Of a stretch of 64,000 nt of DNA, positions 24,625 to 30,120 are shown one piece after another. A program made the translations under genes and the position numbers. The notes under the pieces were generated by a model. That model was given only the letters and a program-made list of their open reading frames with translations, was not told the DNA's origin and ran no database searches. Position 1 is the stretch's first letter. Every line of letters begins with the position of its first letter. The DNA is from a virus, in IMG/VR virus record IMGVR_UViG_3300000553_000012, positions 1-64,000 of that record; one strand, 5' to 3'.

Positions 24625-25434
24625 ATGGCGTTAAATGGATTTAATATTGCCGAATTTAAAGCCAATGCTTTAAGAAATGGCTTACTTAAGGACAATCTAT
24701 ATCTGGTAAACTTTCAACAATCTGGATTTTTATCAAATAGCTTAATGTTTTTTACTGAAAATGTATCTATACCAGCAACAGATTTAGATACACAAATGAT
24801 AAGAAGATATGGCTATGGTCCTATAGAAAATGTTCCATTTCGTCCTGTTTTTCAACCATTACGAATGACATTTATAGTAGAAGCTTCTCAACAAAACGTA
24901 CTCATTAATGTTTTAAAAAATATATCTGCTACAACATCATTCATGAATTATAATAATATGAGCACTCAGGGTGAAACTTTGTTGGGCGGAAGAACAACAG
25001 CATATCCTTATGAGGTAGCATATAAAGGTGATTTAGAATTTGATCTTACTGTATATGTTTACAATGATCATCAAGATACAATAATGACTTATACATTTAA
25101 ACAATGTTATGCTAAACAGGTTGGTGATATTTCTCTCGGTTGGGCGACAAATGATCAATATATGAAAGTAGACGTTGTTTTTATGTATACAGATTACAGT
25201 ATTAATTCTGAAACAACTACTCAAATCGACGACTTGAGTAGTTTAAGTAATATACAATCTCAATTAGGATTTTCATCACCTTCACAAACTATAAGCGCAC
25301 TACAATATCCGGTGGGAGTTTCAGATGCTATTAATTTAGCAAATGCTAGAACTTTAGTTGGACTTCAAAATAACCCGGCTGGAAATTATGTTTCACCTTC
25401 AAATAGTTCTTTAACAAATCAAATACAATTATAA
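24625..25434 (+). CDS. Tail-tube-fold protein, probable tube initiator gp54
   Basis: A 269-residue protein of the gp19/gp54 tail-tube fold. Residues 20-85 (NLYLVNFQQSGFLSNSLMFF, ENVSIPATDLDTQMIRRYGY, PIENVPFRPVFQPLRMTFIV) and 170-195 (VGDISLGWATNDQYMKVDVV, FMYTDY) align with the VGELQLDWDSNNEIQTFEV segment of T4 gp19. The ~70 extra C-terminal residues and location beside gp4/gp26/gp48 favour the tube initiator gp54 rather than the main tube. Both readings remain possible. Confidence 0.7.
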   Translation: MALNGFNIAEFKANALRNGLLKDNLYLVNFQQSGFLSNSLMFFTENVSIPATDLDTQMIRRYGYGPIENVPFRPVFQPLRMTFIVEASQQNVLINVLKNISATTSFMNYNNMSTQGETLLGGRTTAYPYEVAYKGDLEFDLTVYVYNDHQDTIMTYTFKQCYAKQVGDISLGWATNDQYMKVDVVFMYTDYSINSETTTQIDDLSSLSNIQSQLGFSSPSQTISALQYPVGVSDAINLANARTLVGLQNNPAGNYVSPSNSSLTNQIQL

Positions 25435-25467: not shown

Positions 25468-26187
25468 ATGCCATTACCTAAATTAAAAGTACCTCTTTTC
25501 GATGTGACTATACCATCTACAAATAAAGACGCTAAATACAGACCTTTTCTTGTAAAAGAAGAAAAAATTCTTTTAATTGCTCAACAGGGTGGCACAAAAA
25601 AAGAAATGATTAATGCCCTAAAACAAGTCATTAATAATTGTATGACTTTGATTGATGGAACAGATGTTGATGTAGACTCATTAACAACATTTGATTTAGA
25701 ATATCTTTTTTTAAAGATAAGATCAAAATCTGTTGATAATGTCGTAGAATTAAAATACATTGATCATGAAGATGAAAAAACTTATGAATTTAAAGTATCT
25801 TTGGACGATATAGAAATTCAACATACTCCAGAACATACAAATAAAATTAAAATAGATAATGACGTTGGAATTATTATGAAATATCCCACGGCAACAATGA
25901 TAGATAATGTTCCTGAAGATATTAGTGATGCTGATATGTCTGTGTATATGATCAAAGAATGCCTTGATAAAATTTATGATGCTGAAGAAGTTTATCTTGC
26001 AAAAGAATGTAATAAACAAGAATTAGAAGAATTTGTCGATTCATTAAATGTAAAAACATTTGAAAATATTCAAAAATTCTTTGAAACTATGCCTAGACTA
26101 TATCATAAGATTGAATATACTAATTCAAAAGGAACGGCTCGAACAATTGAGTTGACTACGTTAGATGATTTTTTTACATTGGCCTAG
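25468..26187 (+). CDS. gp26: Baseplate hub assembly protein gp26 (tail chaperone)
   Basis: A 239-residue member of the T4 gp26 baseplate family (T4 208 aa). Typical features are the N-terminal LPKLKVPLFDVTIPSTNKDA, KYRPFLVKEEKILLIAQQGG (~1-45), NCMTLIDGTDVDVDSLTTFD, LEYLFLKIRSKSVDN (~70-105) and a cysteine pair later. It acts in baseplate hub assembly and occupies the tail-chaperone position just before the long tail genes. RBS TAGGAG is eight bases before ATG. Its last codons carry a seven-T slippery run, and the -1 frame stays open to the next gene. Confidence 0.85.
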   Translation: MPLPKLKVPLFDVTIPSTNKDAKYRPFLVKEEKILLIAQQGGTKKEMINALKQVINNCMTLIDGTDVDVDSLTTFDLEYLFLKIRSKSVDNVVELKYIDHEDEKTYEFKVSLDDIEIQHTPEHTNKIKIDNDVGIIMKYPTATMIDNVPEDISDADMSVYMIKECLDKIYDAEEVYLAKECNKQELEEFVDSLNVKTFENIQKFFETMPRLYHKIEYTNSKGTARTIELTTLDDFFTLA

Positions 26188-26345
26188 TTCACAATGATTT
26201 AAATAATTATTATTCTACATTATTTTCTATGGTTCATCATCATCATTATTCCATAGACGAATTGGAAAATTTGATTCCTTTTGAAAGAGATTTATATGTC
26301 GGTATGATTAAAGATATTATAGAAGAAGAAAATAGAGTTAATTAA
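25468..26345 (+). CDS. Predicted gp26 -1 frameshift fusion product (292 aa)
   Basis: At 26169-26175 the zero frame reads GA T-TTT-TTT-ACA, a U UUU UUU slippery heptamer. A -1 slip avoids the TAG at 26185 and gives 56 more residues from TAC (26175), beginning YIGLVHNDLNNYYSTLFSMV. The extension includes HHHHYSIDELENLIPFERDL and ends RVN-TAA, immediately before the next ATG. It has normal amphipathic composition. The only in-frame ATG (26229) would discard the first third and has no RBS. This parallels the G/GT chaperone frameshift of other tailed phages. Confidence 0.65.
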
Positions 26346-28532
26346 ATGGCATTTTTACTACCATTATTAGAAGGTGGCGCGGCGATCGGTGCAGAAGCAG
26401 GGGCTGTCGGTGAAGCGGGGGCTGCCGCTGAAGGCACTGCTGCTAAAGGTGCTATAAAAGATATAAAAAAATTAGAAAAAGATACAAATGAAAAAACAGA
26501 TAAATTAGAAAAAACTACAAAAAAAGTAAAACAGTCTGATACATATAATCCTTTAGAACAAGCAATATTAAAACAAGAAGGTATTAAACCGCGCGGCTTT
26601 TGGTTTGCTCGTGATAATGAAATGGTCAAAAAAGAAGAGATTACAAGAACTTTAGAATCAAATCCTACTATAATAATTGTCAAAAAATTAGATATTATTG
26701 ATAATAAAATAACAACGCTTATTGATATATCTAAAAATGTTTTAAAAAATACAACAGAACAATTGGATTTTTTAAAACGAACTGTTGAAGATATGGAAAT
26801 TGAAAAAGAAGAAGCTTCTCTTAAAGGTAAAAAAAATAATCGTGATGTAGAACCCGTTGACAATTCTGATAAAGAAAAAACCAAAATGAGTGGTTCTTTA
26901 ATGTTATTGCTAGGCGCCGGCTTTTTATTATTTGCTAGATGGTTAGGTAATCTTAAAACCGCTTTTGGTGCTTGGATGGTAGTTAGTTTGAGTAAAATAG
27001 GAAAAACTATAGATAATGCTATAAAAAGTATTATAGGAGCTTTTAAAAAAAGATCAACTGTTCCTAAAAATATAGGTAAAGATGAAAAGGCTTTAATAAA
27101 TTCTGAGGAAGAAGCAAAAGAAGCAAGAGCCGCATATGAAGAAGCAAAAAATCTTTCTAGTTCTAAAGGAAAATCTATAGTTAAAAAAACATTGAGTTTT
27201 GTTGAAAAGAAAACTCTTCAATTTTTCAAATTATTTAAACCTCTTCTAGAGAAAGGCAAATCTCTTTTAAAATTTTTAGGAAAATTTGTTGGTATAATTG
27301 GTACTCTATTGGTATTTTCAGATGCTATAATTGATTTTCTTAGTAATGGATTTAAATTAGATGATAAAGTTAAATCAGATTTTTTAAAAGCATTTGGAGC
27401 TCTTATAGGAGCAATTGTGGGTGAAGCTGGCGGGACCGCCATTGGTGCTTTTTTTGGATCAATAGTACCAATAATAGGAACAGCGATTGGAGGAGTTATC
27501 GGAGGATTAGTTGGTTCATTTGTGGGTGCAAATGTAGGAGAATACATAGCAAAAAAAGTTGGTGAATGGATATTTGATGGAAAAGATATAGGAGCTATAC
27601 TAAAAGAATTTGTCGATGATACATTTAATTTTATAAAAACTCCTATATCAAATATAGGTTCTTTCTTTGGATTTGGTCCAAAAAAGAAAGATCCAGGAGC
27701 TACCGCTAGCAGCAAGCCTACTCCCACAACAACAAATGTTCCCAGACAAATGAATAATGCTCAAATGGCTGGAATTAAAGGACTAGGCGGAAATGGAAGC
27801 ACTGCTGAAGCCATGAATTATTTAACCAAACAAGGATGGACCAAAGAGCAGGCCGCCGGAATAATAGGAAATCTACAGGTAGAAAGTGGAATAAATCTTA
27901 AAATAAATGCGCTTGGTGATAATGGCCGTGCATATGGAATTGCGCAATGGCATCCGGACAGACAAAATAAATTTTCACAATTATATAATAAAGATATTAG
28001 AGAATCTAATTTTAAAGAACAATTAGCATTTCTTAATTGGGAATTAAACAATAGTGAAAAAAGAGCGGGTAATATTATAAGAGGAGCGACCTCGGCGGCA
28101 GATGCGGCTGCTTTATTTGATATTCATTATGAAAGATCAAGTGGAACAGCAAGACAGCAAAGAATTGCAAATGCTGCGGCTATAATCGGTGGAAAAAACA
28201 ATGGAATTCCAACATCTACATCATTTTCTACCGTAAATCCAGTATCTTTTGCTAAATCATTTAACGGCGGTGGAGGAAGTGGTGGTGGAGGTGGATCTAC
28301 TGCTCAATCGAGTAGTGCGCCAAAAGCTTCAACTAATCCTTCGGCAGGAAAACAATCATTAACTAATCAACCTACACAAACTTCTCAAACTCCACTTACT
28401 CCAAGAAAACCAGTATCTCCGGGTATACAATATGGCATACCAAATCCAGTATACACAATGATAAAAGAAGATTGTGCTGCTGTATTTTTTAATTCTGGTG
28501 AACCGCTGTTTGGTGTTGCCGGATTAACCTAA
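26346..28532 (+). CDS. Tail protein with phage-tail lysozyme domain
   Basis: A 728-residue protein directly after the gp26 pair, in the tape-measure/hub position. Order: Ala/Gly start, charged coiled coil, a YNPLEQAILKQEGIKPRGFWFARD module (~55-85) shared with the next gene, and a hydrophobic helix (SGSLMLLLGAGFLLFARWLG, ~180-200). A long glycine-zipper segment follows (~348-405: FGALIGAIVGEAGGTAIGAF, GTAIGGVIGGLVGSFVGANV). A phage-tail-lysozyme domain lies at ~475-620 (GWTKEQAAGIIGNLQVESGI, RAYGIAQWHPDRQNKFSQLY) with the likely catalytic Glu in QVESG. The zipper suits insertion into the inner membrane during DNA delivery. Confidence 0.75.
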   Translation: MAFLLPLLEGGAAIGAEAGAVGEAGAAAEGTAAKGAIKDIKKLEKDTNEKTDKLEKTTKKVKQSDTYNPLEQAILKQEGIKPRGFWFARDNEMVKKEEITRTLESNPTIIIVKKLDIIDNKITTLIDISKNVLKNTTEQLDFLKRTVEDMEIEKEEASLKGKKNNRDVEPVDNSDKEKTKMSGSLMLLLGAGFLLFARWLGNLKTAFGAWMVVSLSKIGKTIDNAIKSIIGAFKKRSTVPKNIGKDEKALINSEEEAKEARAAYEEAKNLSSSKGKSIVKKTLSFVEKKTLQFFKLFKPLLEKGKSLLKFLGKFVGIIGTLLVFSDAIIDFLSNGFKLDDKVKSDFLKAFGALIGAIVGEAGGTAIGAFFGSIVPIIGTAIGGVIGGLVGSFVGANVGEYIAKKVGEWIFDGKDIGAILKEFVDDTFNFIKTPISNIGSFFGFGPKKKDPGATASSKPTPTTTNVPRQMNNAQMAGIKGLGGNGSTAEAMNYLTKQGWTKEQAAGIIGNLQVESGINLKINALGDNGRAYGIAQWHPDRQNKFSQLYNKDIRESNFKEQLAFLNWELNNSEKRAGNIIRGATSAADAAALFDIHYERSSGTARQQRIANAAAIIGGKNNGIPTSTSFSTVNPVSFAKSFNGGGGSGGGGGSTAQSSSAPKASTNPSAGKQSLTNQPTQTSQTPLTPRKPVSPGIQYGIPNPVYTMIKEDCAAVFFNSGEPLFGVAGLT

Positions 28533-28533
28533 A

Positions 28534-30120
28534 ATGGCAAAATTAGAAAATGTCTCAAAAAAAATAAAAAATACTGACTATAGCCCATTAGAAATACAGA
28601 TTTTAAGAAGTAAAGGTATTACCACAAAAGGTTGGTGGTTTTCAAAAAACAATAAAATGATAAAAAAAGATGAAATAGACAATACTATCAATACAAGTGG
28701 AATTCTTGTTGTAATAGATAAATTAGATTTAATTAATAAAAAAATTAATAAAACACGAAAAAATTTGTTTAAAGCCATGGATGCAAATGAAGAATCTATG
28801 GACTATGCTATACGAATATTTAATCTTAATAAACCTGAAAGTTCTCCAAAACCTGTTCCTAACAAACAAAAAAGAAAAAAGAAAAAATCTGATAATTTAG
28901 GTAATTTTTTACTTTTTGCTGGAATAGAATTATCAGTATTAATCCGTGGCGCTATAGGATGGGCAACTACTGGTATACAAAAAATATTTGACACATTAAA
29001 ATCAGGATTTAGTAAGGTAATAGCTATACTATATGATGGCTTGTCCAGTTTTATGAACTTTATAGGACAAAAAGATGCTGCAAAAGAGTTTAGTGATAAA
29101 GCTAAAGCACTTAGATTACCGCCCGCGCCTTCTATACCCAAAACTAAAAAGAATGAAGTGGGTGCACCGTCTACTGGAGGTTCTGAAGTTTCTCCACAGA
29201 AAGAAGTAACACCAGAGCTTCAATCTACAAATGCTCAACTTGCAACTAACAAACCAAATGATATAATTTCATCAAGTCCAAGTCCGAGTATACAGTCTAC
29301 TACCGGTGGAAGTGGAACTGGTGGTTCAGTCTCTCCAGCACCGCCTACTACCGGTGGAGGTGGAACTGGTGGTTCAGTCTCTCCAGCACCGCCTACTACC
29401 GGTGGAAGTGGAACTGGTGGTTCAGTCTCTCCAGCACCGCCTACTACCGGTGGAGGTGGGCCACCCGCTACTGGGGATAAAATACAAACAAATACGGGGA
29501 AAAAACCAAATAATGTAACTTTAGGCCCAAAAGCAGATATATCAAAAGTAGAACCCGAATTACTATCTAGATTTTATGCAGCCGCAGTAGAATATGGCAA
29601 ACCATTAAAAATTGAAACAGGATATCGAGGAGACGAATATCAAGCAGAACTTTGGGTAAGAGCTAATATATTTCATGAACCGAGAATTTTTAGTCCAGCA
29701 TCACCAAAAAACGATACTACAATTATATATAAAGGAAAAACTTTTACCGTCAAAGGTGGTGGTAAAGGAAGCGCCCATGCTTTAGGGCAAGCAATAGATG
29801 TGAGTCCGACTGCTCCACAAGGACAACAATCACCACTGGATCCATTTTTAAAGAAACATGGGCTGTGGAGACCTTTTATTAATGGCGTAGGCAGAACTAA
29901 AGCAGACGCTCCACACATTCAATATGCTGGTAAAATGGGAGCAGATATACAAGAAGGACAAAGATTTATGAATAATAAATCTTCCACTACTTCTGCGCCA
30001 AAAACAAATCCACCGACTTCTACTAATTCTAAAAATAATATAAATAATAATGGATATTCATTAGAACAGCATTTTGGCGTAAATGAACCGACATACACTT
30101 CACATAATCAAGGAACTTAA
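28534..30120 (+). CDS. Tail protein with M15 peptidase domain
   Basis: A 528-residue companion of the preceding gene. Residues ~10-60 (YSPLEIQILRSKGITTKGWW, FSKNNKMIKKDEI) parallel that gene's N-terminal module, then a short hydrophobic helix (FLLFAGIELSVLIRGAIGW). A Gly/Ser/Pro linker with three 48-bp repeats leads to a C-terminal M15/VanY-type zinc peptidase (~335-490). Its SxHxxGxAxD motif is SAHALGQAID (~411-420) and the late ligand His is in APHIQY. It would cut peptide cross-links as the lysozyme partner cuts glycan. One base separates the genes. Confidence 0.8.
   Translation: MAKLENVSKKIKNTDYSPLEIQILRSKGITTKGWWFSKNNKMIKKDEIDNTINTSGILVVIDKLDLINKKINKTRKNLFKAMDANEESMDYAIRIFNLNKPESSPKPVPNKQKRKKKKSDNLGNFLLFAGIELSVLIRGAIGWATTGIQKIFDTLKSGFSKVIAILYDGLSSFMNFIGQKDAAKEFSDKAKALRLPPAPSIPKTKKNEVGAPSTGGSEVSPQKEVTPELQSTNAQLATNKPNDIISSSPSPSIQSTTGGSGTGGSVSPAPPTTGGGGTGGSVSPAPPTTGGSGTGGSVSPAPPTTGGGGPPATGDKIQTNTGKKPNNVTLGPKADISKVEPELLSRFYAAAVEYGKPLKIETGYRGDEYQAELWVRANIFHEPRIFSPASPKNDTTIIYKGKTFTVKGGGKGSAHALGQAIDVSPTAPQGQQSPLDPFLKKHGLWRPFINGVGRTKADAPHIQYAGKMGADIQEGQRFMNNKSSTTSAPKTNPPTSTNSKNNINNNGYSLEQHFGVNEPTYTSHNQGT
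29299..29460 (+). repeat. Three 48-bp tandem repeats plus partial copy
   Basis: In-frame units at 29299-29346, 29347-29394 and 29395-29442 and an 18-bp partial copy encode TTGG(S/G)GTGGSVSPAPP. Units are identical except at an AGT/GGT codon. They form the flexible linker before the M15 domain and could change length by slippage. Confidence 0.9.

Follow-up and report, generated by a model that had tools for sequence, protein, structure and literature searches.

Organization of the gp26 locus

The window that we analyzed was a 64,000-nucleotide stretch of viral DNA (IMG/VR record IMGVR_UViG_3300000553_000012, positions 1 to 64,000). The region of interest contained the following features.

24625..25434, + strand: upstream neighbor, tail-tube-family protein (phrog_45 tail tube, 1.2e-19)
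25468..26187, + strand: gp26 zero frame, 239 aa, putative short tail assembly chaperone (TAC-N-like; PF12322, phrog_150, AlphaFold model)
26169..26175, + strand: slippery heptamer T TTT TTT in zero-frame phase (codon reading; homologous sites)
26175..26345, + strand: -1 frame extension of 56 codons plus TAA, matching the C-terminal part of T4 gp51, the long-form chaperone (phrog_634, tblastn, aligned relatives)
26183..26191, + strand: position of the 5' arm of a sister-phage stem, eroded in the window (5 of 9 pairs left with 26230-26238)
26185..26187, + strand: zero-frame TAG, 3 sense codons past the heptamer (codon reading)
26230..26238, + strand: position of the 3' arm of the sister-phage stem, eroded in the window (pairs with 26183-26191)
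26346..28532, + strand: downstream neighbor, tape-measure-like protein with a tail lysozyme domain (phrog_9570 tail length tape measure, 1.2e-34; PF18013 Phage tail lysozyme, 6e-32)

The zero-frame codons starting at positions 26167, 26170, 26173, 26176, 26179, 26182, and 26185 were GAT, TTT, TTT, ACA, TTG, GCC, and TAG, respectively. T TTT TTT at 26169-26175 was an X-XXY-YYZ heptamer in the phase needed for a tandem -1 slip, and the TAG was the fourth codon after it, as an initial annotation of this DNA had stated. The -1 frame was open from 26175 to 26342 (56 codons), and its TAA at 26343-26345 abutted the ATG of the next gene at 26346. The earlier claims of a 56-codon frame ending exactly at the next gene and of a 292-residue fusion were both confirmed, the latter recomputed as 236 + 56. 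The junction in the predicted long product reads LDDFFYIGLVHNDL. The window's -1 frame had only two ATGs, at 26229 and at a site deeper in the frame; both fell within the conserved core and had no Shine-Dalgarno match, which agrees with the claim that the extension has no usable start. Two more IMG/VR contigs (L092 and L093) were identical to the window sequence over 3,171 nt, so the signature does not stem from an assembly error.

Identity of the two predicted products

The 25468-26187 product matched PF12322 (T4_baseplate) at 1.6e-58 and 198 bits, with residues 12-236 aligned to positions 5-218 of the 219-position profile, and it matched phrog_150 at 2.9e-64. On the strength of these profile matches, the gene is identified as T4 gp26. 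The extension alone matched phrog_634, "baseplate hub assembly catalyst" (T4 gp51), at 2.8e-21, and was matched by tblastn in 564 phage records. The 96-kb record, which may be a fragment of the genome, held one PF12322 match and one phrog_634 match.

T4 gp26 and T4 gp51 matched one another in blastp searches (4e-6), and both belonged to PF12322. By these sequence matches they are paralogues and the counterparts of the short product and the fused long product, respectively. Specifically, T4 gp51 matched phrog_150 end to end (13-280 of 282) and phrog_634 at 1.2e-23, and it represented a one-piece version spanning both parts of the window fusion. The C terminus of T4 gp26 (..GLKEFFELL) fell where the slip would be, and that end of the gene had neither a slippery heptamer nor an open -1 frame.

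The AlphaFold model of window gp26 had a pLDDT of 88.8. When residues 1-89 of the model were compared with the HK97 tail assembly chaperone (PDB 2OB9), the Z score was 8.4 (next best, 2.5), and the superposition had an rmsd of 3.5 over 87 residues with 9% identity. Foldseek also ranked the HK97 chaperone at the top for the gp26 model, as a weak match (E 0.4, prob 0.90). In the case of a T4-type gp51 model, whose last 50 residues were of low confidence, Foldseek returned no clear PDB match. The gene order was tail tube (phrog_45), gp26, and tape-measure-like protein (phrog_9570). The HK97-like predicted fold and this gene order support the reading of gp26 as a tail chaperone, and they agree with the earlier proposal of a chaperone pair that precedes the long tail gene, as G/GT do. 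A review of T4 counts gp26 and gp51 among the hub assembly chaperones and describes gp51 as needed for assembly and absent from the particle (PMC3004832).

Conservation of the heptamer and the -1 frame

Our first alignment contained 87 sequences, drawn from the window, from IMG/VR loci, and from annotated phages that included cyanophages, the KVP40-type vibriophage phi-pp2, Sinorhizobium phage phiN3, and Stenotrophomonas phage YB07. In this set, T-TTT-TT[T/C] was in phase, 0 to 8 codons ahead of the stop, and the -1 frame was open. The extension was present and open in all aligned relatives and was conserved from the heptamer onward. An enlarged set, found by a profile of the extension, comprised 205 distinct homologous sites, 200 of which had an in-phase T-TTT-TT[T/C/A] (86 TTT, 110 TTC, 4 TTA, and 0 TTG). 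The number of sense codons between the heptamer and the stop was 0 to 8 in 201 sites, mostly 1 or 3. When distinct gp26 loci were instead located through an N-terminal motif, a search that made no use of the slip site, all 78 had a heptamer no more than 8 codons from the stop. As background, 60 kb of gp26 gene bodies contained four in-phase T6Y heptamers; because 200 of the 205 homologous sites had one, the heptamer is not a chance occurrence.

The choice of nucleotides was also informative. Frame 0 reads Phe-Leu, not Phe-Phe, at the four TTTTTTA sites, and the loss of the Phe pair therefore points to selection on the nucleotides of the slippery sequence. In 87 of 87 sequences, the codon before the heptamer's Phe pair ended in T and the first Phe codon was TTT. 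For 56 representatives that were less than 70% identical, these two preferences had log10 P values of about -9.5 and -10.5, calculated from each locus's own codon use with shared ancestry ignored. The T TTT TTA sites, which carry a canonical strong slippery heptamer, were L135, L175, L178, and L190. In L135, the sequence immediately 3' of the heptamer was GGGCTCTC-TCAC-GAGAGCC.

The five sites that lacked the heptamer were T4-type fused gp51 genes (Aeromonas phage 31 and L285), Campylobacter phages CP21 and CP220, and Pseudomonas phage Cygsa01. The initial annotation had proposed an alignment of homologues as a check, and about 200 relatives kept the -1 frame and a slippery run in the required phase. 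It had also named relatives with an own-start extension, or without the slippery run, as evidence against frameshifting. Such cases were confined to distant side branches and included no close relative: Cygsa01 had no heptamer and its stop overlapped an ATG, and two full genes were present in the T4, RB43, and Aeromonas 31 lineages.

In CP21 (L086 2440-2540), the gp51-like extension was offset by +1 from its gene. We rejected a +1 frameshift for this phage because the corresponding region of CP220 is a single open frame; the offset more likely reflects an indel, either in the CP21 record or in the strain itself.

The extension has been annotated as a separate small gene, gp51, in many database records, those of S-RSM4 (g51) and Sinorhizobium phage phiN3 among them, and such a gene would have its own start and be translated independently or by re-initiation. 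The arrangement in Cygsa01 and the ATG present at the stop in 9 of 135 representatives are in keeping with this idea. The remaining 126 representatives, however, had no ATG at the zero-frame stop. No start position was conserved, and the starts that were present usually lacked a Shine-Dalgarno sequence and often lay inside the conserved core. Moreover, the -1 frame was conserved from the heptamer, which is upstream of the annotated starts, and an in-phase slippery run would be unneeded. A separate gene is thus very unlikely, and independent re-initiation was rejected because conserved starts were missing.

RNA elements flanking the heptamer

In 135 representatives, the RNA a few bases 3' of the heptamer had a mean z of -2.52 versus synonymous recodings, and the control regions had mean z values of -0.40 (distal extension) and -0.29 (gene body); the stimulator tests counted related sequences separately, which makes their P values optimistic and affects the slid and synonymous controls less. 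In the U UUU UUU lineage, we identified a 9-bp stem in which offsets 7-15 pair with offsets 54-62 after the heptamer. Across 39 relatives, 89.5% of the cells in this stem were paired, compared to 20-36% in slid controls, and double changes were present in six of the nine pairs. Part of the U UUU UUC lineage had a different, local 11-bp hairpin at the same place, also with double changes; compensatory changes were thus found in two different stems.

Upstream of the heptamer, the U UUU UUC/A lineages usually had Glu-Gly codons that gave a Shine-Dalgarno-like GAGG about nine bases away. The Glu codon of this motif was GAG rather than GAA by 42 to 22 in 64 cases, versus 20.4 GAG expected. The spacing of GAGG resembles that of the stimulatory Shine-Dalgarno sequence of Escherichia coli dnaX. 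Neither the stems nor the Shine-Dalgarno-like motif is mentioned in the literature passages on T4-like chaperone frameshifting that we examined, and these downstream stem-loops and upstream motif may be undescribed so far.

The subclade of the window consisted of the window, the identical L092 and L093, and L001, L002, and L094. This subclade has lost the 9-bp stem, and the window keeps five of the nine pairs. The downstream structure of the window had a z of +1.54 versus synonymous recodings, and at lengths of 48 to 159 nt none of the window RNAs folded significantly better than synonymous recodings. Downstream structure was weak or absent in L001, L002, and L094, and no well-paired helix containing G-C pairs was common to these three and the window. 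A Shine-Dalgarno-like motif was not found upstream of the window heptamer. Stimulators are not obligatory at strong slippery runs. The window has a slippery run and a nearby stop without a detected stimulator, and its slip efficiency could be lower or set in some other way.

One plausible but tentative reading is that exchangeable cis-elements govern the chaperone frameshift of T4-type phages. One lineage would combine U UUU UUU with a long-range stem, another would combine U UUU UUC/A with a local hairpin and a Shine-Dalgarno-like GAGG located nine bases ahead of the heptamer, and the window's subclade would have a bare U7 that lacks both kinds of element. If this were true, the phages would form a natural series of stimulator gain and loss while the short:long ratio was held. 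The gp26 family offers a compact system for examining how downstream stems and upstream Shine-Dalgarno-like motifs tune slippage.

Proposed expression of gene 26

The same fused protein might also arise if RNA polymerase slipped on the T7 run and added a base to the mRNA. The window does have seven consecutive T's, and the frames of the product would match. However, 110 of 200 sites had only six T's (TTTTTTC), and polymerase slippage would not require a codon phase, yet the phase was fixed everywhere. Selection on the RNA structure downstream and the Shine-Dalgarno-like motif upstream instead implicate the ribosome, and we regard polymerase slippage as highly improbable. A further alternative, that protein conservation in an A+T-rich genome incidentally gave rise to the Phe-Phe pair and the open -1 frame and that the extension is a relic, has a negligible probability. 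The window is indeed A+T-rich, with 83 T6Y runs on the + strand. However, Phe-Phe is broken at the TTTTTTA sites, all relatives keep the extension open and conserved, T4 gp51 contains a homologous part, and the RNA folding goes beyond that of synonymous recodings.

The sequence signature was in phase and conserved, the two predicted products are homologous to T4 gp26 and gp51, and the predicted fold and the gene order both match those of tail chaperones. From these observations, we infer that gene 26 of this uncultured T4-like phage very probably yields two proteins by -1 programmed ribosomal frameshifting. The initial reading of a -1 frameshift in gp26 that makes a tail-chaperone fusion is supported by the conservation, by the gp26 and gp51 counterparts, and by the lack of a conserved start for the extension. 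Under ribosomal frameshifting, most ribosomes would terminate at 26185 and produce the 239-aa short chaperone (gp26, TAC-N). A fraction of the ribosomes would slip at U UUU UUU (26169-26175), where both tRNA-Phe would re-pair one base back. The slipped ribosomes would bypass the stop and produce the long form (TAC-NC) of 292 aa, which would end in 56 residues that correspond to the gp51 C-terminal domain. If the two products act like lambda gpG and gpGT, the tape-measure protein (26346-28532) is probably coated by the short form and tail-tube subunits are probably brought in by the long form; neither form would be expected in the virion.

Comparison with two-gene phages and other known systems

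Two full genes (gp26 and gp51) were found in the T4, RB43, and Aeromonas 31 lineages, and the frameshift form was found in KVP40-type and phiAS5 phages, which are in the same family (Straboviridae) as T4. In a tree of the short, long, and frameshift forms, the short forms grouped together, as did the long forms of T4, 31, and RB43; many branches were weak or long, and the tree did not settle the order of events. T4 gp26 and gp51 are the same kind of short and long chaperone pair as that predicted for the window, as assigned via PF12322 and phrog_150 matches. The difference is that T4, Aeromonas phage 31, and RB43 have two paralogous genes, whereas the window has one gene with a slippery run.

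Vladimirov, Gautam, and Davidson (Virology 2022;566:9-15) reportedly described tail assembly chaperone genes and poly-T -1 signals of T4-like phages. According to a passage in a later paper, the TAC-N genes of T4-like phages are known to carry poly-T -1 signals (PMC12846349, citing Vladimirov et al. 2022), and a passage in another states that some T4-like phages have separate short and long chaperone genes instead of frameshifting (PMC10885494, citing Vladimirov et al. 2022). Judging from these passages, a frameshifted chaperone gene in T4-like phages has already been reported in outline, and the mechanism is known in kind. A 2016 recoding review describes the tail frameshift as conserved in long-tailed phages "except T4" (PMC5009743). 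Our results, drawn from about 200 relatives, indicated that the sampled T4-type phages that do not belong to the T4 lineage proper usually have a single frameshifted gene. T4 genes 26 and 51 are the two-gene version of this gene in a phage that reviews list as the exception (PMC5009743).

The gp26 system resembles lambda gpG and gpGT in that a -1 slip, here a predicted one, falls close to the 3' terminus of a chaperone gene located between the tail-tube and tape-measure genes, and neither lambda protein is present in the virion (Xu, Hendrix, and Duda 2004; reviewed in PMC5009743). It differs from lambda G in its all-U slippery run and in the stimulators found in part of the family, and the two were likened by slip position and gene order. 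In the case of the HK97 tail assembly chaperone (2OB9), the predicted fold of gp26 residues 1-89 is alike, but identity is 9% and gp26 has a further ~150 residues. According to the passage on Vandenendeviridae and Andersonviridae, these phages have a GTTTTT poly-T motif, and a -1 extension precedes their tape measure gene (PMC12846349); they belong to other phage families with another motif and were likened by description.

Annotation of the extension and neighboring genes

In the frameshift-type regions that we examined, the fusion was missing or was split into a "baseplate hub assembly catalyst" or a hypothetical gene. Cyanophage records L081, L082, and similar records left the conserved extension unannotated between "baseplate hub" and "endolysin," and other cyanophage-type records split it off as "baseplate hub assembly catalyst" with an internal start. 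Joining gp26 and the extension would correct many records.

Downstream of the extension, the 26346-28532 and 28534-30120 products had similar N-terminal regions (32% identity over 180 residues, E 3e-19). Their cell-wall enzymes differed: the former had the tail lysozyme domain (PF18013), and the latter had a weak VanY carboxypeptidase match. Within 28534-30120, the segment at 29306-29518 encoded a Gly/Ser/Pro-rich tandem repeat of about three SPAPPTTGGSGTGG-like copies, which lies in the linker of the VanY-like protein.
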